NCBI GenBank assembly: GCA_903899015.1
Contig: CAIUHP010000089.1
Location: 1 to 52,250, forward strand
Source of the DNA: an uncultured Armatimonadota bacterium
GTDB lineage: Bacteria; Armatimonadota; Fimbriimonadia; Fimbriimonadales; Fimbriimonadaceae
Direction: 5' to 3'
Length of the DNA: 52,250 bases
Part shown: positions 4,014 through 19,909 of the stretch, one piece after another
Position numbering within the stretch: position 1 is the stretch's first letter
How the letters are laid out: the number at the start of each line of letters is the position of its first letter
Position numbers and translations under genes: made by a program
The notes under the pieces: model-generated
Database searches by the model: none
What the model saw: the letters and a program-made list of their open reading frames with translations, nothing else
What the model was told of the DNA's origin: nothing

Positions 4014-7000
4014 TTATCGAATTACCCAGAAGCTACCACCGGATGAACCGATGTAGACTCGGCCATCTGCAGCAATCGACGGAGAACTCTGTCCGTAAGT
4101 GTTTCCGGTGAGGAACCTCCACTTCGGCAATCCATTTGGACTGACTGCATAGAGGTTGGAGTCCTGCCCTTGGAAGTAGATTGATCCGTCGGATGCAACT
4201 GACGGTGAGCAAGAGATTGAGTAGTAGGTTGGGAACGTCCACTGCCCTTCGCCAGCGACGCTAATGCAATATAGATTGCCATCATACGAGCCAACGTAGA
4301 TCATTTTGCCATCGGGCGAGAGCGCGACAGACGATTCAACTTGAGCCCCCAAAGTCATGGCCCAAAGCTTGGTTCCGTCTGATTTTAGAGCGTAAACATT
4401 GCTGTCTGACGAACCAAAATAGATGTTCCCGTTTGCATCGATAGTCGGAGTGGAGTGAATGGGGCCACCTGCTTTAAATGCCCACTTCTTCGTACCGTTT
4501 GAGTTCAGAGCGTAGAGATTTCCATCGTCCGATCCAATGTAAATCGTACCGTCGCTTCCGATAGCGGGTGACGAGGTACCGTTTTGAGTTGATCCAGTAG
4601 CGAACTGCCAGACCTTATTACTTCCCGCGATCGCATAGACAATGCCGTTTGTCGATTGAAAATAGACGTTGCCATTTGCTCCGATAGCGGGAGACGAAGC
4701 GACGGGACCAGAAGCTTGGAAGGCCCAGTTCTTCGCTCCTGAGCTTGAAACGGAATAAACAAATCCGTCGAGCGATCCAACGTAGACTGATCCATCCGCA
4801 GCAACCGCTGGTGAAGAAATCACTTCGCCATTTGTCGCGAAGGCCCACTTCTGGGACCCGTCCGGGTTGCCTGCCATGAGTTTCGATCCGACGCCTACGT
4901 AGATCGTTCCGTCAGATCCAAAGCTTGGAGAAGACAGGATTCGCGTTCCAGCTTGCTGGCTCCAATTCTTGGTTCCATCTGGCTTCACGGAGTAAAGAAT
5001 TCCGTCGTCAGAGCCAAAGTTAATCGAGCCGTCAATTCCAACCGTCGGTGACCCTTCAATGGTGTTACCCGTCTTGAAAGTCCATTTTTGAATGCCTGAC
5101 GAGCTTACTGCGTAGACATTGGAATCATAGGATCCGATATAAATGTTGCCCGTTACGTCAATTGCTGGGGATGACATTCCTGTCTGATCGCCTGTTATGA
5201 ACGTCCATTTTGGACTGCCATTGGAACTGACCGCATACAGAACATTTGTCCACGCTCCTACGTAGATCGTGCCATCTGGGGCGACAGCAGGAGTAGTGTC
5301 AATTGCCGAGCCAACCAAAAACTGCCACTTCATAGAGCCGTTGAGGTTGATGTCGTAAAGATATCCGTCGTCTGAACCGACCAGGACCGTTCCATCCTTT
5401 GCAAATGCGGGCGATCCGTTGACGAAGCTACCAGTTGGGAAAGTCCACTTGAGAGATCCGTCAGCCTTAATCGCGTAGACGTTGTTGTCCCGCCCACCGA
5501 AATAGACCGTTCCGTCGGTTCCAACTTTGGGTGATGAGTAGATCGGAATATGAGTGGCGAAGGACCATTTTAGAGTTCCTGCCGAAGTTACGGCATAGAG
5601 ATTGCCATCGTCGGAACCGACATAGACGGTTCCGTCGGCCGCCAAAGCTGGCGAACTGTTGATTTGGTCTCCGGTCTTAAATGCCCACTTCTTCGATCCA
5701 CTTGTGGAAAGGGCGTACAGATTGCCATCGCCTGAACCAACATAGATCGTTCCACCCGAAGAGATCGCCGGTGTAGAAACGGTTGCAGCGTTGGTCTGGA
5801 ATTGCCAAATAAGTTGCCCGGTGGCACTCACCTTCACAACGTAACCGCCGGAAGTTCCGGCGACTAATGATCCGTCTGAAGCATAGACAATGTTGGTTGA
5901 GATGTTGCCAACGCCACCGGCATTGAACGAAAGCGCTCCCGTCGCACCAAAGCCCTTACCAACGGCAGTGTTCGCAGAATTTCCTCTGAATTTGGGCCAG
6001 GCAGTATTAGCCAAGCCGTAAACAACATTGGTAACGGTGAGCGTTGCCTTTAGGGGTGATCCCGACAACGGTGTCGCTGTGATATTAGCCGTCGTCGTCG
6101 CGCCAACAGATGATGTCCCAATCGTGAAGGTTGCCGTTGTCGCTCCGCTACCAACCGTTACGGATGTAGGAACGGTTACTGCGGCATTATCACTTGCCAA
6201 ACTAACCTTATATCCACCCGTTGGAGCCGATCCGGATAAGGTGACAGTGCCAGTTGAAGAAGAGCCATTGTTAACGGTTGTTGGGCTGACCGTAAAGGAC
6301 TGAAGTGAAACGGAGTTAATCGTCAAGGTAAGTGCGATTGAGGTCGCACCCGATTTAGCGGTGATCTTTGCAGTAGTCGGTGATGAGACTGTCTTCGTAG
6401 TCACCTGAAAATTGGCGGAGCTTGCTCCCAAAGGAATCGTGACTGAAGCCGGCACGGTCGCAACCGTCGACGACGATGTAAGTGTCACTTTTACGCCGGT
6501 TGAAGCAGCTTTCCCGTTGAGAGTGATCGTGCCTGTACTTGAACCACCACCACCCACCGTCATAGGCGAGAGAGTGAAACCATTGAACGTGGCTGCCTTA
6601 ATTGTTAGTGGAGCTGACACCTTCGTGCCTGCCGCCGACCCAACGACTATCGCAACGGCATTTGCAGAAACGCCAGTTGTGTTGCATGTGAAAGTGGCCG
6701 ATGTTGATTGACCAGGGATCACGACAAAGGACGGACCACCCCATGCCTTATTAGAAGAGGTCAACGTAACGGTAAGGCCGGAAGCCGGGGCGGGTGAACT
6801 GATCTTAACCGTTCCGGTGGCAGCTGCTCCTCCAAACACGGAATTTGGACTAAACGTCATGCTTGTGAGCTTTGGCGCCTGAATCGTTAAGTTTGCGGTA
6901 GCGGAACTTGAACCGAGCGTCGCTTTAATCGGTGCGGTTCCGGTCAATTGAACAGGGACTGTTTGCACCATAAAAGTTGCAGTTGTTTTGCCACTTGCAA

Positions 7001-7223
7001 CGGTTACCGAACTTGGAACGGTGGCATTGGGGTTCGTGCTTGATAGGTTAACAACCGCACCCGTCCCACCTGCTTTCGCAGACAGAGTCACCGTGCCTGT
7101 CGAAGAAACGCCACCCACAACGGTGGGAGGAACAAAGGCGACTTTTGTGACTTTCTGCGCCAAACAGAACGGAGCCAATAAGGCACAACTGACAATCAAA
7201 GCAATTTTCAAAAGGGGTTTCAT
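4014..7223 (-). CDS. Secreted protein with four Ig-like repeats and sixteen PQQ-type propeller blades
   Basis: The exported protein has 1069 residues. The start at 7223 is chosen because MKPLLKIALIVSCALLAPF forms a clean signal peptide; an in-frame ATG at 7253 adds ten residues that spoil it. Residues ~25-400 hold four ~90-residue Ig-like beta repeats, each opening like FSPNSVFGGAAATGTVKIS. Each has a following TATF or SATF strand typical of such domains in Armatimonadota and Acidobacteria. From ~410 to the end come sixteen blades of ~39 residues with the pattern DGTIYVGSDDGNLYAL plus a KWAF-like strand, that is PQQ/quinoprotein-like propellers, possibly two eight-bladed rings. No catalytic dehydrogenase signature was seen, so a binding or surface-scaffold role is more likely than enzyme activity. 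Substrate and partners are unknown. It is transcribed alone and convergent with the glycosyltransferase. Confidence 0.85.
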   Translation of the reverse strand: MKPLLKIALIVSCALLAPFCLAQKVTKVAFVPPTVVGGVSSTGTVTLSAKAGGTGAVVNLSSTNPNATVPSSVTVASGKTTATFMVQTVPVQLTGTAPIKATLGSSSATANLTIQAPKLTSMTFSPNSVFGGAAATGTVKISSPAPASGLTVTLTSSNKAWGGPSFVVIPGQSTSATFTCNTTGVSANAVAIVVGSAAGTKVSAPLTIKAATFNGFTLSPMTVGGGGSSTGTITLNGKAASTGVKVTLTSSSTVATVPASVTIPLGASSANFQVTTKTVSSPTTAKITAKSGATSIALTLTINSVSLQSFTVSPTTVNNGSSSTGTVTLSGSAPTGGYKVSLASDNAAVTVPTSVTVGSGATTATFTIGTSSVGATTTANITATPLSGSPLKATLTVTNVVYGLANTAWPKFRGNSANTAVGKGFGATGALSFNAGGVGNISTNIVYASDGSLVAGTSGGYVVKVSATGQLIWQFQTNAATVSTPAISSGGTIYVGSGDGNLYALSTSGSKKWAFKTGDQINSSPALAADGTVYVGSDDGNLYAVTSAGTLKWSFATHIPIYSSPKVGTDGTVYFGGRDNNVYAIKADGSLKWTFPTGSFVNGSPAFAKDGTVLVGSDDGYLYDINLNGSMKWQFLVGSAIDTTPAVAPDGTIYVGAWTNVLYAVSSNGSPKWTFITGDQTGMSSPAIDVTGNIYIGSYDSNVYAVSSSGIQKWTFKTGNTIEGSPTVGIDGSINFGSDDGILYSVKPDGTKNWSQQAGTRILSSPSFGSDGTIYVGVGSKLMAGNPDGSQKWAFATNGEVISSPAVAADGSVYVGSLDGFVYSVSSSGAKNWAFQASGPVASSPAIGANGNVYFQSTNGIVYAIAGSNKVWQFATGSTQNGTSSPAIGSDGTIYIGSDDGNLYALNSNGTKKWAFKAGGPIHSTPTIDANGNIYFGSSDSNVYALKSDGTKLWAMTLGAQVESSVALSPDGKMIYVGSYDGNLYCISVAGEGQWTFPTYYSISCSPSVASDGSIYFQGQDSNLYAVSPNGLPKWRFLTGNTYGQSSPSIAADGRVYIGSSGGSFWVIR

Positions 7224-7233
7224 GGAAGATTCC

Positions 7234-7260
7234 GACTCCAAGCCAATTAACATTGGAGTC
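7234..7260 (-). promoter_or_regulatory. 5'-leader stem-loop covering a GGAG ahead of the propeller gene
   Basis: GACTCCAA (7234-7241) and TTGGAGTC (7253-7260) form a perfect eight-pair stem with an 11-base loop, ending 11 bases before the ATG at 7223. In the transcript the downstream arm contains the only GGAG near the start, so folding would hide it. The rest of the 7224-7530 gap holds the divergent promoters for this gene and the oxidoreductase. A TTGACA at 7393 has no convincing -10 partner, and nothing else firm is seen. Confidence 0.4.
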
Positions 7261-7530
7261 TATCACGCGCCTCGCCGAAACAGGTGTTTCAGCGTGCGGT
7301 TCGAGTGTCAGGACGGATTCGAAAGAACAATTTGTTCGGTCCCTCCACGTAAGCTGAGTGGCGGAAACAATTTAGTGTCTTTCAGGTCTAATTTGACAGA
7401 AACAAGATGAACACGGCCAAACATACCGATCGCCTGACAACCTTGTTTTCAACCCGTTTCCAAAAACCTGCTTCGCAAGCTCAGACAGATAAGTCACCAT
7501 GAGCGTAGAAGCGAAAGGATTAAGTTAAAC

Positions 7531-12291: not shown

Positions 12292-14316
12292 GTGAAGCTT
12301 CGTTGGAATCTTTCTGCCCTTTGCCTGGTTGCTAGTTCGATGGTGTCAGTGCACGCGCGAGCAAGCATTGGTCCTGAAAATGTCGCCGTTGTTGTGAATG
12401 GAGACAGTCCGGACTCCATTCGAGTCGCGAACGAGTATGGCCGTTTGCGCGACATACCAGCGTCTCATTTCATCGTGCTTCATCATGTCTCGGGAACCGA
12501 GTTCACGGATGTGGACCACTTCCGCGACGAGATTCTCAAGCCGACTTTGGAGACCTTAAAGTCGCGCGGGCTGACCGCCCAGATTGATTGCATCACTTAC
12601 AGTACGGATCTGCCCTACTCCATCAACGTGGGAAGTGACATCAATGGTCGGCCAATGCCCATGGTGATCACTCAGCCAGCGTCCATAAACGGTTTGACCT
12701 ATTTAAATGACTGGGTGCTCAAGAAGGATATCGATTATCTGAGACTGGATATCAACCGTTATGCTCGGAGACTTACACCCTTACCACAAGGAAAGGATCT
12801 CACTCCATCCGAGCAAACCGACTATGCGATGGCCTTAAACGCCTACAGCAAGAAGAACTATCCAATGGCGATCAAAGGCTTGTTAAAGCTGCTGGAAGTA
12901 CCACGCAATGATCCGAACATTGCCTACAATCTCGCATGCAGTCAGGCACTTCAAGGAGAACCCGACGCGGCAATAAAGTCTTTAAGAATCGCGATTCGCG
13001 CGGGGTGGCGAAACTACGGCCAGACAGCATCAGACCCTGATCTTGCTTCACTTTCAAAGATTGAAGAGTTTCAACAAGTTCTGCACGTGCTTCAGCATTC
13101 CGATATCCAAGTTCAGCCCGGAGTGCCCTTCAACAGTCAGTCCGCCTGGAACTCCGCAGGGGCAATGGACGCATCGGGCCACCACTATATGCTGAGCACC
13201 GTCTTAGGTGTCACGACCGGTCGCGGAAACTCTGTGGACGAAGTTCTCACCTATCTGCGCCGCTCACAGATGGCTGATTTCACCTCACCGAAAGGAACCA
13301 TTTACTTCGAGCGAAACGGGGACGTAAGGTCGAAAACTCGAGAATGGGGATTCCAACCGGCAGCCGATGAACTCAAAAAGCTGGGTGTCAATGCCGTCGT
13401 CGAAGATGGCATCTTGCCTCAGGGCCGCAGCGATGTCGCCGGGGCAACGATCGGAACAGCCGGCTTCGATTGGCCCGCAAGCCATAGTGTGATCCTGCCG
13501 GGCGCCATCTTAGAGCACCTTACGAGTTTTGGCGGAGTTCTCAGTAAAGGAGCCGACCAAACACCCTGCACGGAATTCATGAAGAACGGCGCTTCAGGCT
13601 CTTCGGGAACAGTCACTGAGCCATACGCACTGCAAGAAAAATTCCCGACGCCTTTCATCCATGTGCAATATGCCAAGGGCTTTACACTGGCAGAGTCGTT
13701 TTATCTCTCCCTGACCGGGCCGTACCAACTACTGATCTTAGGGGATCCGCTCTGTAGACCTTGGGCAAAGGCATTATCGGTTCATGTCGCAGGACTGCCT
13801 GCAAATTTACTGTTGAAATCACCCGTCAAATTGAAGCCCACCCTATCGAGTAATGCCTTGGTGACGCGTTATCAGCTCTTCTCAGATGGTAAGTGGCTCA
13901 AGGATTCCAAACCGGGTGAACCGCTCATTCTCGACCCTCAAATCTTGGGATTAGGTTGCCACCAAGTCACGGTCGTCGCAGAATTAGGTGATGCTCCGAA
14001 AAGTAAATATTCTTTCCGTTCTCCTATCTGGGTTTCGAGCGATAAATACAAGATTGAAGCGCCTGTAAAGGTGGAAACGCTTCTAAAAGGAAACATCATG
14101 ATTCCCATTACCGCCAAGGGAGCTACAAGCGTCGAGCTGTTCCACCTTGGCCGATCCGTCGTATCTTTGAAGGCTGACCATGGACTTATCGCCATCGCAA
14201 GCTCGGATATTGGCAACAGTGCTTGTTCAGTGATTCCCGTTGCGCACTACCTGGTCAACGGAAAGTCTGTGAGCATCCAGGGCGCTCCCATAAACATCGC
14301 TCCTCAAAAGGGCTAG
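12292..14316 (+). CDS. TIGR03790-family secreted protein with an inserted TPR segment
   Basis: The 674-residue protein starts at GTG, with a signal peptide over residues 1-24 (LSALCLVASSMVSVHARA). The region VAVVVNGDSPDSIRVANEYG, RDIPASHFIVL and CITYSTDLPYSI is characteristic of TIGR03790, a family of unknown function found in Planctomycetes, Cyanobacteria, Acidobacteria and Armatimonadota. Residues ~171-270 do not belong to that core. They resemble TPR helices (AMALNAYSKKNYPMAIKGLL; IAYNLACSQALQGEPDAAIK) ending with a WRNYGQTASDPDLASL stretch like TPR end-of-group motifs. The C-terminal ~180 residues look like beta-rich Ig-type domains. The gene follows the metalloprotease after 39 bases. 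Its 3' end overlaps the convergent HemG-like gene by four bases. Function unknown; a surface or processing role alongside the protease is a guess. Confidence 0.75.
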   Translation: MKLRWNLSALCLVASSMVSVHARASIGPENVAVVVNGDSPDSIRVANEYGRLRDIPASHFIVLHHVSGTEFTDVDHFRDEILKPTLETLKSRGLTAQIDCITYSTDLPYSINVGSDINGRPMPMVITQPASINGLTYLNDWVLKKDIDYLRLDINRYARRLTPLPQGKDLTPSEQTDYAMALNAYSKKNYPMAIKGLLKLLEVPRNDPNIAYNLACSQALQGEPDAAIKSLRIAIRAGWRNYGQTASDPDLASLSKIEEFQQVLHVLQHSDIQVQPGVPFNSQSAWNSAGAMDASGHHYMLSTVLGVTTGRGNSVDEVLTYLRRSQMADFTSPKGTIYFERNGDVRSKTREWGFQPAADELKKLGVNAVVEDGILPQGRSDVAGATIGTAGFDWPASHSVILPGAILEHLTSFGGVLSKGADQTPCTEFMKNGASGSSGTVTEPYALQEKFPTPFIHVQYAKGFTLAESFYLSLTGPYQLLILGDPLCRPWAKALSVHVAGLPANLLLKSPVKLKPTLSSNALVTRYQLFSDGKWLKDSKPGEPLILDPQILGLGCHQVTVVAELGDAPKSKYSFRSPIWVSSDKYKIEAPVKVETLLKGNIMIPITAKGATSVELFHLGRSVVSLKADHGLIAIASSDIGNSACSVIPVAHYLVNGKSVSIQGAPINIAPQKG

Positions 14317-14894
14317 TCGAGCTGTGGGACCGGTGTACGGGGCTGCTGGTCCGATACGATATCGGCAAATGACTGAGCAAAGCTCTTCACAGCGTTCCAA
14401 TTCGTTAACTCGTGATTAACAGAGGTATCGGTTGGTCCGCCCGCGGTGCGAGAGATACGGCGAAGAATCCACTTTTCGAAGAAACCGTACTTGCGATAGT
14501 GGATTGCTCCGATGAAGCTAGCCGAGAGGTCGGGATCGAGTCCAGTATGTTCCAAGAATTCGTTTATGATTCTTGTATCTTCGCTTCTCGCTTCTGGCCT
14601 CTTGTCTGCCGCATTCAGGCTAACGGTAAAGAATCCAACTGGCACTTCGTTCAGCCATTCAGCGTGAGTCTTTGTCCATCGTTGCAGTGGAACTGGAAGG
14701 CTACCAACATAGACCGGTCCACCCACAATAAAGGCATCAAATTGGTCGAGACGCACCTGGCTCAGTTCGCTCTCATTCGTGACAATAAAGAGGCGCACGT
14801 ATTCGTCAAATTCTTCTAACACGCTGCGAAGACATTCCGCAATCTTCAGCGTTTGCCCATATTGGCTGGAAATGACAATGGCGACTCGTTTCAT
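14313..14894 (-). CDS. HemG-like flavodoxin-domain protein (protoporphyrinogen oxidase family)
   Basis: The 193-residue FMN protein resembles HemG, which oxidises protoporphyrinogen IX with menaquinone in the last-but-one step of haem synthesis. The flavodoxin phosphate loop is SSQYGQTLKIAECL. The aligning HemG features are FDAFIVGGPVYVGSLPVPLQ, VGFFTVSLNAADKRPEARS, SASFIGAIHYRKYGFFEKW and TAGGPTDTS near the C-terminus, where E. coli HemG has SGGETDT. The start at 14894 is set by AGGAG seven bases upstream; an in-frame TTG precedes it. The stop codons of this gene and the convergent TIGR03790 gene overlap. No other haem genes are nearby, so a general flavodoxin-type role is also possible. Confidence 0.8.
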   Translation of the reverse strand: MKRVAIVISSQYGQTLKIAECLRSVLEEFDEYVRLFIVTNESELSQVRLDQFDAFIVGGPVYVGSLPVPLQRWTKTHAEWLNEVPVGFFTVSLNAADKRPEARSEDTRIINEFLEHTGLDPDLSASFIGAIHYRKYGFFEKWILRRISRTAGGPTDTSVNHELTNWNAVKSFAQSFADIVSDQQPRTPVPQLD

Positions 14895-14953
14895 CAAACT
14901 TCTCCTACTCCGGGAGTGTGTCTATTATTCTCATCCAAATTAAGGCATTCTGG

Positions 14954-14968
14954 TAGTCACTAGTTGAC
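14954..14968. promoter_or_regulatory. Candidate operator between hemG-like and HTH-PAS genes
   Basis: The imperfect palindrome GTCACTAGTTGAC (14956-14968) contains GTGACTA on the minus strand (14960-14954). The same heptamer occurs in an inverted repeat ahead of the universal stress gene, and ATGACTT occurs in one ahead of the second HTH-PAS gene. Binding by one of the local regulators is an inference. Confidence 0.35.
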
Positions 14969-15035
14969 CGTCCAGAGAAAACATGACATAAATGTGGTTT
15001 TCAAAGGTAAAACTGCCCGACAACCTTAATGTGCG

Positions 15036-15707
15036 ATGTCCCGAAATTCGCCAAAGATTGTGCCCTCCACCCCCAAAATGAGCCAAGTACCCAAAAAGGA
15101 GATCAGTAAAAAAGATCGCGAGATTCTCAAGCAATTGAGCACAGGAAAAACTGATCTTGAAGTCTGCCGCGCTTTGGGTCTGCTTCCGTCTCAGCTAGAA
15201 CAAGTGATCCGACGGGCTACGCAATGGGTTGACTCTCACGAAACCGAAAACAGCGACATGTTCATGGTGGAACGTGCCTTGCGAAAACGATCCGAGAATC
15301 TTGCTCGTTCGCTTGACTCCAGATTTGCGGCACTCATTGACATTTCCCCCGAGGCCATTTTGGTAGTCAATGCGTTAACAGGTTTGATCAAACAAGCCAA
15401 TGAGAATGCGGCGAACATGTTTGGGTACGCGCTTGAGGATCTTCTGAACCGTTCGATGGAAGATCTTGTTCCTGTAAAGTACCGAGGGATTCACCCCGCA
15501 TATCGTATCGGATTTCTTTCGAGCTCCCGCAAACGACAGATGGGCTACCATCCTCCTATTTTTGGCGTCAAATCGGACGGAACGGAAGTGGAAATTGCCA
15601 TCGCAATCACTTCCGCCACCGACGAAGACGTGATGGTAATTTGCACGGAATTCGCAACCTGGTCGGCTTTCCATGCCAGCGAAACGGTAACCGCTAAAAC
15701 AGGTTAA
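15036..15707 (+). CDS. HTH-PAS regulator (N-terminal LuxR-like HTH, C-terminal PAS)
   Basis: The 223-residue protein combines a LuxR-like helix-turn-helix (ISKKDREILKQLSTGKTD, LEVCRALGLLPSQLEQVI; ~23-70), a helical linker (~80-100) and a PAS sensor domain (~100-210). PAS features include ALIDISPEAILVVN, QANENAANMFGYALEDLL and LVPVKYRGIHPAYR, with GVKSDGTEVEIAI in the last strands. The order is the reverse of most LuxR regulators, where the HTH is C-terminal. The gene at 16680-17390 on the other strand has the same architecture. No ribosome site is obvious; an in-frame ATG at 15078 is an alternative start. Its stop overlaps the convergent universal stress gene by four bases. It probably senses redox state or a small ligand, but no cofactor-binding residue can be assigned. 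Confidence 0.7.
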   Translation: MSRNSPKIVPSTPKMSQVPKKEISKKDREILKQLSTGKTDLEVCRALGLLPSQLEQVIRRATQWVDSHETENSDMFMVERALRKRSENLARSLDSRFAALIDISPEAILVVNALTGLIKQANENAANMFGYALEDLLNRSMEDLVPVKYRGIHPAYRIGFLSSSRKRQMGYHPPIFGVKSDGTEVEIAIAITSATDEDVMVICTEFATWSAFHASETVTAKTG

Positions 15708-16585
15708 ACCGGGCGAAGCAGCAAGACCGGATATCTCTCAAAGATCACTTCGTGGAGCGAGACGCTCCCCGAAATGACACGGTCGACAAAACTGTGTCCT
15801 GGAGATCCCATGACCAGTAGGTCCGCTCCACTCTCAACCATTGCTTGGTGAATTGAAACATCAATGCCTCCAATCACCACTTTGGAATGCGTTGGAATCC
15901 CAAATTCAATGAGCTTCCGCGCGAGTCTCTCTCCGTTTTCTGAGATTGCCGAAGAATGATCTGGTGCGATCGACTGATGCGAATGTCCGATGCCGAATAG
16001 ATGACGATGATCGCTCTTGCTTTCGACGACGGTTAGAATCGTTGCTTCTGAGATGCCTTTGGGAGCCCACTTGACGAGGAGATCCAAGCACTGATTACAA
16101 TATTCTGATTGGTCTACCGCAAAGACGATCTTTAAAGGACCATTCTTTAGTTCACTTTCGCGTGCAACCAAAATCGAGTGCTTGGCAGCAATAGCTAACC
16201 CCCGCGCTACGCTTCCCCCAAATACGGCCCCTAAAGTGTTCGAAATGGTTGAGGTCACACAAATTAAGTCGACTGCGGAATCGTCTGCGAAGTCGATCAG
16301 GGAACGAATTGGAAAGCCGTCTTCCATCCGTGTTTTTGGGTTCAGACCGAATTCATTTGCTTTCGCTTCGGCAGCCGCTAGATTCGCTACTGCCGATTCC
16401 TTTAGCTTAGCTAGGAACTCATCTGCCTCCACCAAAACTCCGTATGCACTATAGGGCAGCGTGAGAGAATAGGGCTCAGTTACGTGGAGCAATGTCGTTT
16501 CGGTGATTCCAAAATTCAACCGACCGAGTAGAGAAATAGCCGAACTGTAGTTCTGCTCCAAATCAATTCCAACGACCGCTTTCAC
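15704..16585 (-). CDS. Tandem-domain universal stress protein (UspA family)
   Basis: This cytoplasmic stress protein has two UspA domains, ~residues 1-140 and 150-293. The first opens VKAVVGIDLEQNYSSAI and ends NTLGAVFGGSVARGLAIAAK and HSILVARE. The second opens LKIVFAVDQSEYCNQCLDLL and ends DLLVMGSPGHSFVDRVISGS and YPVLLLRPV. The second half keeps the GxxGH-like ATP-loop pattern (MGSPGHSF). The GTG at 16585 is preferred over an upstream ATG (16615) because AGGAG lies eight bases before it and the first beta strand then starts at residue 1. It lies 94 bases downstream of an HTH-PAS gene in the same direction, and an inverted repeat (16599-16625) sits just before its ribosome site. Regulation by the flanking HTH-PAS proteins is likely but inferred. 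Confidence 0.88.
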   Translation of the reverse strand: MKAVVGIDLEQNYSSAISLLGRLNFGITETTLLHVTEPYSLTLPYSAYGVLVEADEFLAKLKESAVANLAAAEAKANEFGLNPKTRMEDGFPIRSLIDFADDSAVDLICVTSTISNTLGAVFGGSVARGLAIAAKHSILVARESELKNGPLKIVFAVDQSEYCNQCLDLLVKWAPKGISEATILTVVESKSDHRHLFGIGHSHQSIAPDHSSAISENGERLARKLIEFGIPTHSKVVIGGIDVSIHQAMVESGADLLVMGSPGHSFVDRVISGSVSLHEVIFERYPVLLLRPV

Positions 16586-16598
16586 TTGACACGCTCCT

Positions 16599-16625
16599 GT
16601 GACTAACACATTCAAGTTAGCTCAC
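16599..16625. promoter_or_regulatory. Inverted repeat upstream of the universal stress gene
   Basis: GTGACTAAC (16599-16607) faces GTTAGCTCAC (16616-16625) across ACATTCAA; one extra base is in the right arm. It ends immediately upstream of the AGGAG of the gene starting at 16585. The half-site GTGACTA recurs at 14954-14960. It could be an operator or an mRNA stem. Confidence 0.45.
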
Positions 16626-16679
16626 GGAATAGAGTCAAGCAAGTCGAATTTTCCGCGTCATCCGTTCCACCGACAGTGC

Positions 16680-17390
16680 TTATTCGGCCATCGATTCGCC
16701 TTGAGGTGTATGAATAGAAAAGGCCAAAAGCGTATCCGTCAAATCTTGAATAACGCAGGTTGTAAAGAATCCGCTAGAAGATTCCGTAGCACTTAAAACG
16801 GCGGCCATCGGAAACTGAGATCCGTCTTTTCGAATCGCATAGGTAGCCAGATGCTCACCCATTTTTCGTTTCACCGGGTTCTGTCGATAGACTTTTCGTT
16901 CATCAACGTGTGAACGACGATGCTGCTCAGGCACGAGTTCTTCGACTGTGAGTTCAAGCATTTCACCTGGCTCAAAGCCAAACATTCTCTCGCATTGGGG
17001 ATTGGCAAGCTGAATCTCACCGGTTTCGCTTACGATGAGAATTGCGTGAGGAGCCGTTTCAATCAGCCCATTAAACAGGTCTAACTTGGTCTGCATTACC
17101 TCAACATTCCGTGATTGCTCTTCAATTTGATCCAGCAATCCCTGGTTCTCTTGCTTGAGCGATTCCAAAATGAGAGTCGCATGCTCTTGAAGGAACAAGG
17201 CAACCAACTCCGTTCGGTTGAGGGGACCAAACTTAATTCGAACTCGCCCCCAGTAGGTTCCGACGGTCGCTAAACTGATTCCAAGGCGGTGAGCAATGGC
17301 CGTATCGGTAAGACCTTTAGAAGCAAGAACTACTAACTGACGCTCACGCTCAGACAAAGACTCCGCCATTGCCTGAGCGCGTTGCTGCAT
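16680..17390 (-). CDS. HTH-PAS regulator (LuxR-type HTH first, PAS second)
   Basis: The 236-residue regulator has a clear LuxR-type HTH at ~10-65 (LSERERQLVVLASKGLTD; IAHRLGISLATVGTYWGRVR), a coiled-coil-like linker (~70-110) and a PAS domain (~112-230). The PAS domain shows APHAILIVSETGEIQLANP, CERMFGFEPGEML, LVPEQHRRSH and KMGEHLATYAIRKDGSQFP. This is the canonical sensory PAS of bacterial kinases joined in unusual order to a DNA-binding domain. It is a distant paralog of the 15036-15707 protein. It is transcribed toward the universal stress gene, 94 bases apart, probably as one unit. A perfect palindrome lies 25-39 bases upstream of its start. The start at 17390 is the first ATG; a second in-frame ATG lies at 17369. 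Confidence 0.78.
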   Translation of the reverse strand: MQQRAQAMAESLSERERQLVVLASKGLTDTAIAHRLGISLATVGTYWGRVRIKFGPLNRTELVALFLQEHATLILESLKQENQGLLDQIEEQSRNVEVMQTKLDLFNGLIETAPHAILIVSETGEIQLANPQCERMFGFEPGEMLELTVEELVPEQHRRSHVDERKVYRQNPVKRKMGEHLATYAIRKDGSQFPMAAVLSATESSSGFFTTCVIQDLTDTLLAFSIHTPQGESMAE

Positions 17391-17414
17391 ATAGCTTTAG
17401 GATACAGCTTGAAG

Positions 17415-17429
17415 ATGACTTAAAGTCAT
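17415..17429. promoter_or_regulatory. Perfect palindrome upstream of the HTH-PAS gene
   Basis: ATGACTT (17415-17421), one base, then AAGTCAT (17423-17429) forms a perfect 15-base palindrome 25 bases upstream of the minus-strand start at 17390. Its half-site resembles the GTGACTA of the two neighbouring sites. Autoregulation is the simplest reading. Confidence 0.45.
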
Positions 17430-17516: not shown

Positions 17517-18935
17517 TTAGCCTTCTAACAAGTAACGAACAACATCCGCAGCCCGATAGCTCGTCTTTCCTGGCTCGATAAATTTTGAAAGGTTCGAGAT
17601 GTCGTCTCCGGCAGTGACCAGTGGAGCTTCAACGCTTCCGTCCTTTCGCTTTTGGCCAAAGCCAATGGTCGAGAAAAGTCCATTACAAACGCACTTTCTA
17701 TTCGCAAGTTCTTCGGGTTTTCCGCCTTTCGCAATGTAGTCTTCTGGCGGCTCTGCCGGACACCGATAACCTAGCGTGCCGTCTTCCTTTCGATAACACT
17801 GTCGCAGATAACCAAGGTCGCAAATGCGGCCCCGATTCTCGTAAATATCTGGCTCGGAAAGTGTGCCTTCCAGCTGAAGCACTTTGAAAGGAAATCCGGT
17901 TGGCGAAGCCAATGGATCGGTGAAAACGTCCAGTTTTCCACTCAGACTCTGATCGACGACCTTTTGTTTGATCGACGGTTCAATTCCCGATTCCTCACAG
18001 AAAGCGAACGCGGTTCCCACTTGAATTCCGGTTGCCCCAAGTTCAAGAGCTTCTTTCAATTTAGATGGATCCGCATAAGATCCGGCGAGCCAGAACGGCA
18101 AGCCTAATTCCGCTATTTCCTTGAGGTCAGGAACGTCTCGAGGACCGTAGATAGGCTCGCCGGATTCACTTAACTGCATCGCGCCACGAGGTGGGGCATT
18201 GTGACCTCCTGCGGTTTGGCCCTCGACAACAAACCCGTCAACCTTTCCAGTGCCTTTGCGCACGAGAGTGATCGCAAGAGTTGACGAAGAAATAATGGCT
18301 AGGAAGTTGGGTCTTGGTACCCCGGTGCAGTTTTCAGGCACATATTCCTTAGGCACGAAATCGACCAAAAACTCTTCTCCGGGCTTTGCTCCCGAGACAT
18401 CCAACTTCAATTGCGTCGGTTCCAGCAAAGACATCTTGTCCAAAATCGCAGGAATGGCACGGGGAATGCCTGCGCCCATCAATACGTAATCTACGTTTGC
18501 GAGCATTGCGCCAAACAATGAGGGCAATGTTGGCAATTGAATCTTCTCAAGTAAGTTGATGCCGACGACCCCATCATGTCCGTGTTTGGCGAGAAATACT
18601 TCGACGAAATTTGCGACGACTGTGAGTTCCAATAAAGCCTTAGTGGAATGCTGCGCCATCATGGGCTTGCTTTTATAGGCCTTAGCTGGTTTCTTGCCCC
18701 CGTCGACAAAGTAACGCTCCCAAATGCGTTCCGCCATCTCTTTTATCGGAAAGTTATCAAGAGCAAGGCGCATCTGTCCGTCGGGATCGCCGGCCTGCAG
18801 CCGCCTCGTCAAAACCGCATCAAGGCCCGTTCCCGAAACCACTCCTAGTTGCCCACACTGCGACACGGCGCGTGCGAGTCGCCAAGAAGAAACGGCGACA
18901 CCCATGCCACCCTGAATAATCTGAGGAAACCCCAT
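17517..18935 (-). CDS. Nitronate monooxygenase-type flavin oxidoreductase with Cys-rich tail
   Basis: The 472-residue protein of the NAD(P)H-dependent flavin oxidoreductase / nitronate monooxygenase family is an FMN TIM barrel. Signatures are PQIIQGGMGVAVSSWRLARA at the start, EGQTAGGHNAPPRG (with the active-site-type GGH), PFWLAGSYADPSKLKEAL, and ATGIQVGTAFAFCEESGI for phosphate binding. Canonical enzymes are about 310-360 residues. This one has an extra ~100-residue C-terminal segment with five cysteines (C372, C380, C392, C415, C417, ending CVC), which could bind metal or an iron-sulfur cluster. It belongs to the longer subgroup whose substrate is not established, so nitronate oxidation is only a family label. 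It is a single gene on the minus strand. Confidence 0.82.
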   Translation of the reverse strand: MGFPQIIQGGMGVAVSSWRLARAVSQCGQLGVVSGTGLDAVLTRRLQAGDPDGQMRLALDNFPIKEMAERIWERYFVDGGKKPAKAYKSKPMMAQHSTKALLELTVVANFVEVFLAKHGHDGVVGINLLEKIQLPTLPSLFGAMLANVDYVLMGAGIPRAIPAILDKMSLLEPTQLKLDVSGAKPGEEFLVDFVPKEYVPENCTGVPRPNFLAIISSSTLAITLVRKGTGKVDGFVVEGQTAGGHNAPPRGAMQLSESGEPIYGPRDVPDLKEIAELGLPFWLAGSYADPSKLKEALELGATGIQVGTAFAFCEESGIEPSIKQKVVDQSLSGKLDVFTDPLASPTGFPFKVLQLEGTLSEPDIYENRGRICDLGYLRQCYRKEDGTLGYRCPAEPPEDYIAKGGKPEELANRKCVCNGLFSTIGFGQKRKDGSVEAPLVTAGDDISNLSKFIEPGKTSYRAADVVRYLLEG

Positions 18936-19051: not shown

Positions 19052-19909
19052 TTACCAACGAATTTCTGCCGGGAAGAACTCCGAAATTAGGTCCTCATAA
19101 TACGGTCTTAGCTTCTGTACGTCGGGCTTGATGTCGGTTTTTGTATAAAGATCGTACTTGTTAAATTCCTTGATCCAAGGCATCATGCTTCTATCGTAGT
19201 CTGACGCTAGATGATCGTATGCGCCTTCTCGGTGCCAAGGATAGAACGAGTGGTATCGGATCATGTACAGAGCTTCGTCTGGCATGTAGTCGCGAGCGAC
19301 GTGATACATATACTCGTCATGACCAAAAGAGATGTCGACTTTGTCTAGACCACATCCTGGTTCATAGATTCCGTTTTCTGTTTGGTAAATATCGACCTGC
19401 GAATCTGGATTTTGCTTAAAGAACTCGGAAAAAACGACTTTGTCTGAGAAGCGACAACCGGTTGCAAAAGTATCGCCGACAACTGCCCATTGAGGCTCGC
19501 CATAGAGACAGAGAACCTTCCCAAGATCATGCAAGAGCCCGGTCAAAATGAACCAACGGGGATGCCCATCGGCTCGAATTGATTCCGATGTCTGCATCAG
19601 ATGCTCGATTTGAGTCGCATCGGTATCGGGATCGCTGTCATCTACGAGCGTGTTGAGGAACTCCATCGCTTCCCAAACCGACATTTTCTTAGAGTTCAGC
19701 GAGCAATACTGAGCCTTCTTTGCCTTGACGAAATCGTGAGTCTGATTCGTGTGATTGAGCCGATAGAACTCCTTTACGGAAGGTCGCACTTCAGCCGCAT
19801 AGTCTCGAAATGTATGCTCCTTCGTTGGATATCGCTCCAGCAGGTCATCTTCCCACTCATGAAGTGAGGTCAAAGGCTTCGACGATGAGATCTCTTGAGA
19901 CGCATCCAT
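19052..19909 (-). CDS. myo-Inositol oxygenase (MIOX)
   Basis: The 285-residue non-haem di-iron oxygenase converts myo-inositol plus O2 to D-glucuronate. The match to animal and plant MIOX is strong along the whole length: [76 protein letters not shown] and [15 protein letters not shown]. All six di-iron ligands appear to be present (H116, H127, D128, H197, H220, D253, the last in FNKYDLYTK). No signal peptide, so the enzyme is cytosolic. The start at 19909 has no ribosome site; TATAGT six bases upstream suggests a leaderless transcript, with a 22-base palindrome just behind it. The upstream neighbour on the same strand is a secreted GH2 glycosidase. Together they suggest use of inositol- or uronate-containing plant material. 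The eukaryote-like sequence raises the possibility of old horizontal transfer. Confidence 0.92.

Follow-up and report, generated by a model that had tools for sequence, protein, structure and literature searches.

The closest described relative of the proteins considered here is FG214 of Fimbriimonas ginsengisoli, a one-component switch in which a helix-turn-helix (HTH) is followed by a PAS domain, and which has been purified and crystallised (PDB 10JX and 10JY; preprint of March 2026, PMC13060918). The purified protein contains heme b, for which His156 and His175 are the ligands and Met172 an alternative one; it passes from monomer to dimer upon ligand binding, and reduction frees its HTH (PMC13060918). 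It recognises G-rich half-sites arranged as inverted repeats, and a 2-bp spacer gives the clearest ligand dependence. According to its authors, a heme-binding PAS domain had not been reported until then in a one-component context. The portions of the preprint available to us name no native operator or target of FG214 and leave its cellular role open, and the terms universal stress, Hsp20 and operon are absent from that text. A search of literature titles for FG214 or Fimbriimonas together with regulon returned no other relevant title. Here we compare with this system a locus on contig CAIUHP010000089.1 (C89) of an uncultured member of the Fimbriimonadaceae with a genome of 4.94 Mb. Among named organisms this genome is nearest to Fimbriimonas and other Armatimonadota MAGs. 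The analysed stretch, positions 1 to 52,250, is called the window. Its locus consists of a regulator gene R1 (15036-15707, + strand), a gene for a tandem universal stress protein (USP; 15704-16615, - strand) and a second regulator gene R2 (16680-17390, - strand). We consider it fairly probable that R2, a regulator of the FG214 kind, acts through a conserved operator on the USP gene within a low-oxygen regulon, and that R1 modulates it. What computation shows is which genes are present and how they are linked, their homology and ligand positions, and an operator that co-occurs with R2. The three genes that a first-pass annotation of this DNA had described are confirmed.

R2 comprises a LuxR/GerE-type HTH (residues 10-65), a long helix and a PAS domain (residues 104-219), for which the Pfam matches are GerE at 10-65 and PAS_9 at 114-219. 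Among solved structures the closest to it in sequence is 10JX/10JY (E 1e-23, over the coiled coil and the PAS domain), with further matches to the PAS domain of FixL (1e-9), to DosP (7e-5) and to the HTH of DosR (3e-4). A Foldseek search with the AlphaFold2 model of R2 (mean predicted local distance difference test score, pLDDT, 89) placed 10JX at the top and the heme domains of FixL and DosP next. At the heme-ligand positions of FG214, R2 carries His161, Met177 and His180 and R1 carries His153, Met169 and His172, so that both window proteins keep all three (His, Met, His). Among 55 aligned family members, the counterpart of His156 is present in 53, of Met172 in 51 and of His175 in 50. Domain order, Pfam and structure matches and ligand columns agree in marking R2 as an FG214-type regulator, and we predict that it is a heme-PAS one-component switch that would bind heme as FG214 does. 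PAS S-box domains commonly have a lone proximal histidine, and the PAS domain here might be no gas or redox heme sensor at all, sensing another ligand or free heme itself. Free heme as the signal would also fit the operator, described below, that stands at hemA promoters in two species. This alternative seems very unlikely, given that both the proximal and the distal positions of FG214 are kept in at least 50 of the 55 relatives, the two window proteins included, and that FG214 itself purifies with heme b.

The similarity to FG214 extends to gene neighbours. A genome of the same genus as that of the window (G008) encodes FG214 exactly, from which we infer that it is F. ginsengisoli. In it the FG214 gene (L053 8514-9173) has an R1-type gene 21 bp away, and L053 also carries two USP genes, at 5367-7271. 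The gene set found in the window is therefore that of the FG214 cluster. R2 and FG214 are alike in domain order, ligand positions, fold and these neighbours, and unlike in that R2 belongs to another branch of the family, is about 44% identical and has Glu at the place of FG214 His159. The first-pass annotation had not recognised the layout; in kind it is not new, since an HTH-PAS protein whose gene has these neighbours has already been purified, crystallised and found to bind heme. The HTH-PAS unit is a variant of a type of system whose first description dates from 2026, and we did not find its companion family or its regulon described in the literature searched.

Full-length HTH-PAS matches in 16 of 20 genomes of the genus form 30 clusters, whose positions were copied by hand. 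A USP gene lies within 6 kb in 10 of the 30, against 0.21 expected (Poisson p 4e-14), and an Hsp20 gene in 8, again against 0.21 (p 9e-11). Of 61 genomes, 36 have relatives of R2 at E<=1e-10, and 34 of these 36 belong to the same family as that of the window; some of the matches are to a single domain. In the family tree the window R2 falls in the branch of G013:C44, G004:C39 and G005:C153. The trio is a real, recurring unit, and of the conservation predicted for it and for its repeats it is the gene unit that is found in relatives; the inverted repeats are unsupported as a common element (see below).

Two further observations concern the distribution of these genes. The genome of the window has a second Hsp20/R2/R2/R1/USP cluster on contig C16 (L052 6215-9897), which looks decayed, with stops in the R1-like and USP frames. 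Another HTH-PAS branch (L070, L071, L072, L074, L076 and L077) has a peptidase-like gene and a gene of 509 amino acids as conserved neighbours, with neither USP nor Hsp20, and its targets may differ.

The promoters of R2 relatives contain an array of GTC half-sites, seen as GTCA-N10-GTCAT-N8-ATGAC in the divergent Hsp20/R2 gap. A matrix was built from 11 training dyads of such promoters; these are excluded wherever we speak of non-training sites. The matrix located more sites at USP and other promoters, with a chance expectation of 0.96 sites per Mb at score 19. Its top site in the window is 16657-16674, accompanied by AAGTC at 16641 (score 21.0); the runner-up, at 15.6, is intragenic, and a 3.1-Mb null contained no site at 21. 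Thirty sites from other genomes gave the consensus GTCATGGG-AT-CCCATGAC with a third half-site 14-15 bp away. A profile of these 30 sites, built without the genome of the window, found 16641-16686 in the 52-kb window at E 0.00027 (next independent match 0.45), and over the whole 4.94-Mb genome it ranked the USP/R2 gap first (E 0.026). Lower-ranked genome sites lie beside an R2-like gene on C113, at another USP promoter on C44 and in the Hsp20/R2 cluster on C16. A predicted, conserved operator is thus present in the USP/R2 gap at 16641-16686 (- strand), upstream of the USP gene, consisting of the dyad GTCATCCGTTCCACCGAC at 16657-16674 (given on the + strand) and the half-site AAGTC at 16641-16645. 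It was absent from the list of the first-pass annotation.

Simpler markers were tried and set aside. The first promoters had come from GTCATGGTTTCCAATGAC with 3 mismatches and from GTCAT-N8-ATGAC, but as genome-wide markers both were poor: many matches of the former were intragenic, and counts of the latter failed to separate genomes with R2 (R2+, an R2 match at E<=1e-25) from those without (R2-). The longer profile was built for that reason. A pattern of three GTC elements was swamped in G018 by the heptamer GTCAGTG, which is tandemly repeated in that genome, for example at G018:C53:228233-228411 and on other contigs.

The site of action had previously been placed elsewhere. Inverted repeats at 14954-14968, 16599-16625 and 17415-17429, one in each gap, were held to share a half-site upstream of all three genes and to serve both regulators in a closed, self-contained switch. 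The last of these (ATGACTTAAAGTCAT, with no strand assigned) is indeed a perfect 7-bp inverted repeat upstream of R2, with arms ATGAC and GTCAT, and about 10% of equally long random sequences have one as good. The other two are at chance level: about their centres 16599-16625 pairs 5 of 13 positions and 14954-14968 none of 7, and the best inverted repeats in their gaps are no better than random (P 0.60 and 0.79). The three upstream regions share no 7-mer, their sharing of 5- and 6-mers equals that of random sequence (P 0.28 and 0.29), and the profile lends no support at any of the three places. Tried as a regulon site, the exact palindrome was rejected, with one exact copy in 4.94 Mb and scattered matches at 2 mismatches. 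Nor is the switch self-contained, the predicted operator being present at many other promoters. A closed three-gene switch working through these repeats is accordingly extremely improbable; what survives of it is a one-component regulator beside the USP gene, and probably controlling it, as the linkage above indicates. The palindrome before R2 is not the conserved operator, and may be a separate or rearranged site; only its symmetry speaks for it. One and the same 15-mer lies at G000:C80:76-90, C96:76-90 and C94:15938-15952 and 18425-18439; the equal distance from two contig starts and the two occurrences in C94 suggest a repeated element at assembly breaks. In the gap between the flavodoxin gene and R1, 14956-14987 (+ strand) shows a weak operator-like spacing, GTCA-N10-GTC-N12-ATGAC, which is not significant (matrix score 11.4, profile E 2.7).

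Several lines of evidence connect the operator with R2. Placement was tested on a hand-picked subset of profile matches chosen blind to their genes; left out were L260 (locus too short to place), L305 (two sites), and L256-L259 and L261-L268 (repeats of training sites or of other rows). In R2+ genomes 38 of 57 non-training sites were intergenic and 5 more overlapped a start, compared with 1 of 18 and 1 more in R2- genomes (base rate 13.5%, binomial p 4e-20; Fisher p 4e-6). The sole intergenic site of the R2- set comes from G029, a genome with a remote HTH-PAS match (E 5e-20). At score 17 a site precedes 7 of 33 non-training USP genes versus 18 of 735 other genes (p 4e-5). The recognition helix is identical throughout 17 R2 proteins, which a single common operator would require, and we count this in favour. 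The 8-2-8 geometry of the operator is that of the 2-bp-spaced inverted repeat which FG214 binds in a ligand-dependent manner. Such evidence for R2 as the protein that would bind the operator is strong, though indirect. Response regulators of the LuxR family recognise similar inverted repeats with a 2-bp spacer, and the operator could belong to one of these regulators, for instance of NarL or DosR type, with the HTH-PAS genes merely among its targets. The assignment to R2 is indirect, and in G028 (L269) the operator precedes the gene of a LuxR-type regulator. That intergenic placement tracks the presence of R2, and that the sites cluster at R2-linked promoters and, in relatives, at the promoter of R2 itself, makes another owner unlikely.

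Genes downstream of the sites were classed by Pfam. Besides USP, Hsp20 and R2 itself, they encode PEP synthase/PPDK-like proteins (G008, G025), a cation P-type ATPase, alcohol dehydrogenase, cytochrome bd subunit I, a short-chain dehydrogenase/reductase, nitroreductase (G013, G004), multiheme cytochrome c (G005, G028), FeoB, HemA (G004, G005), PEPCK (G002, G005), an OadA-like carboxylase (G005, G012), fumarase, formate-tetrahydrofolate ligase, a molybdopterin oxidoreductase, acetyl-CoA hydrolase and a CBS-domain protein. A site also precedes genes for a globin-coupled chemoreceptor of the protoglobin-MCP type in G001 and G019 (L280 at about 1501-1527 and L318 at about 1451-1477). In G008 predicted sites are present at 3520-3535 kb and elsewhere. 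The recurrence of the same kinds of gene as targets in different species speaks for real sites. In four genomes the operator precedes genes for extracytoplasmic function (ECF) sigma factors (L051 8417, L073 6413, L200 6875 and L197 6500, the L073 gene being assigned by similarity to that of L051), which suggests a regulatory cascade. Taken together, the targets suggest a low-oxygen or redox regulon, which would work like that of DosR without being DosR's.

The two regulators of the window are not equivalent. Both had been described as having the HTH first and the PAS domain second, which is clear for R2; in R1, Pfam finds the PAS domain only, and a degenerate N-terminal HTH emerges from profile-profile alignment with R2 (probability 99.8%) and from a weaker structure model with a three-helix N-terminus (pLDDT 74). 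R1, a sister protein of R2, lacks the conserved recognition helix that marks FG214-type proteins. R1 proteins form one group in the family tree (10 of 55 rows, support 100/100), and that of the window is closest to the R1 beside FG214. Eight of the ten R1 genes have an R2-type gene within 1 kb. The two exceptions are L055, whose 16-kb locus contains no R2-type gene, and L058, which is close to a contig end. Mean identity in the recognition helix is 24% among R1 proteins versus 88% among the R2 proteins of the same clusters, whereas in the PAS domain it is 57% versus 43%. Because its PAS domain is conserved while the helix has diverged, R1 has kept a sensor and lost the common DNA-reading surface. 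The helix would vary as well if R1 were a complete DNA-binding regulator that recognises a site of its own, specific to the cluster, and an HTH fold is still predicted at its N-terminus. Against this stand the contrast between helix and PAS domain just given and the lack of the operator at all 9 R1 promoters searched, and we find it rather unlikely. Most likely R1 acts on R2 as a co-sensor or partner.

The mechanism that we infer, as regards heme binding at this locus, binding of the operator by R2, the stimulus, the sense of regulation and what R1 does, would run as follows. Oxidised R2 would be a monomer in the off state. A change in heme redox state or ligand would free its HTH and allow it to dimerise, and the dimer would bind the 18-bp inverted repeat (half-site GTCATGGG, 2-bp centre) together with the third half-site 14-15 bp away. 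Since the operator stands just upstream of the tandem USP gene, R2 probably activates that gene upon a fall in oxygen or redox potential, the gene belonging to a wider low-oxygen regulon. R1, with a similar heme site and a decayed DNA-reading helix, would modulate R2. A number of results weigh against this picture. Most USP promoters (26 of 33) have no site at score 17, and within the window neither the promoter of R2, in which several relatives do have the operator, nor that of R1 contains one. A profile match at E<=0.05 is present in 4 of 12 non-training R2+ genomes and in 8 of 37 R2- genomes, which is no separation. One of 20 random 52-kb sequences held a site as high as that of the window (22.5; the others 18.5 or less), and the genome-wide E of 0.026 is only modest. 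Some sites are intragenic or precede genes of no obvious kinship, for example a zinc carboxypeptidase (L288). Finally, the FG214 array half-site GGGGCGGGG differs from the operator in its outer letters, only the inner GGG agreeing, and it is not enriched in the window (8 occurrences with at most 1 mismatch, 10.2 expected).

The remaining features of the locus are as follows. The product of the USP gene passes the curated cut-off of the Usp family (E 2.8e-22) in two stretches (C89:15758-16132 and 16160-16498). Its frame is open to 16615, but a GTG at 16591, with AGGAG 5' of it, is the likelier start, giving a gene at 15704-16591 (- strand). No consensus sigma-70 promoter was found around the trio; a pair TTGACT-17-TTGAAT (16638-16610) before the USP gene, seen by eye only, was discounted in view of that scan. 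The trio is flanked by genes for a flavodoxin/HemG-like protein (14313-14897), a nitronate monooxygenase-like protein (17517-18935) and a myo-inositol oxygenase (19052-19909), all on the - strand. The first and third are syntenic in G013 and the second in G013, G004 and G005. The G013 locus (L062) has the order flavodoxin, USP, R2, nitronate monooxygenase, myo-inositol oxygenase as in the window, but with Hsp20 between R2 and the monooxygenase gene, where the window has no gene, and without R1.

With its gene neighbours, the operator and the list of targets in hand, the open cellular role of FG214 becomes directly testable at named promoters. These findings point to an oxygen or redox regulon around a one-protein sensor in a little-studied phylum, and the proteins of the R1 family, in which a heme-type PAS domain is conserved and the HTH decayed, would constitute a novel type of companion subunit. 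A more far-reaching possibility, which we offer only tentatively, is that across the Fimbriimonadaceae the FG214-type switch is a master low-oxygen regulator, acting through the operator, one protein doing the job of DosS/DosR or FixL/FixJ. R1 would then be a heme sensor with a disarmed HTH that tunes R2 through mixed dimers, like the partner or inhibitor subunits of helix-loop-helix (HLH)-PAS systems.

Among other known systems, the DosR box, TTSGGGACTWWAGTCCCSAA, has no match in the window at 3 or fewer mismatches and is also unlike the operator. A literature search for a low-oxygen locus of Burkholderia that contains USPs found nothing. R2 resembles DosR/DevR of Mycobacterium in its HTH and differs in consisting of HTH and PAS domain only, with neither receiver domain nor kinase partner. 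The DosR regulon includes heat-shock proteins, USPs and nitroreductase, in the parts of the reports consulted (PMC10034137, PMC5309233); the operator targets likewise include USP, heat-shock protein and nitroreductase genes, a resemblance of content and not of membership. EL222-type regulators, which sense through a light-oxygen-voltage (LOV) domain, also join PAS domain and LuxR-type HTH in one chain and share the effector-release mechanism, with the opposite domain order and a flavin cofactor, as far as they are treated in the available text of PMC13060918. With FixL and DosP, R2 shares the PAS fold and the proximal histidine; unlike them it has no kinase or phosphodiesterase part, and its output HTH is in the same chain.

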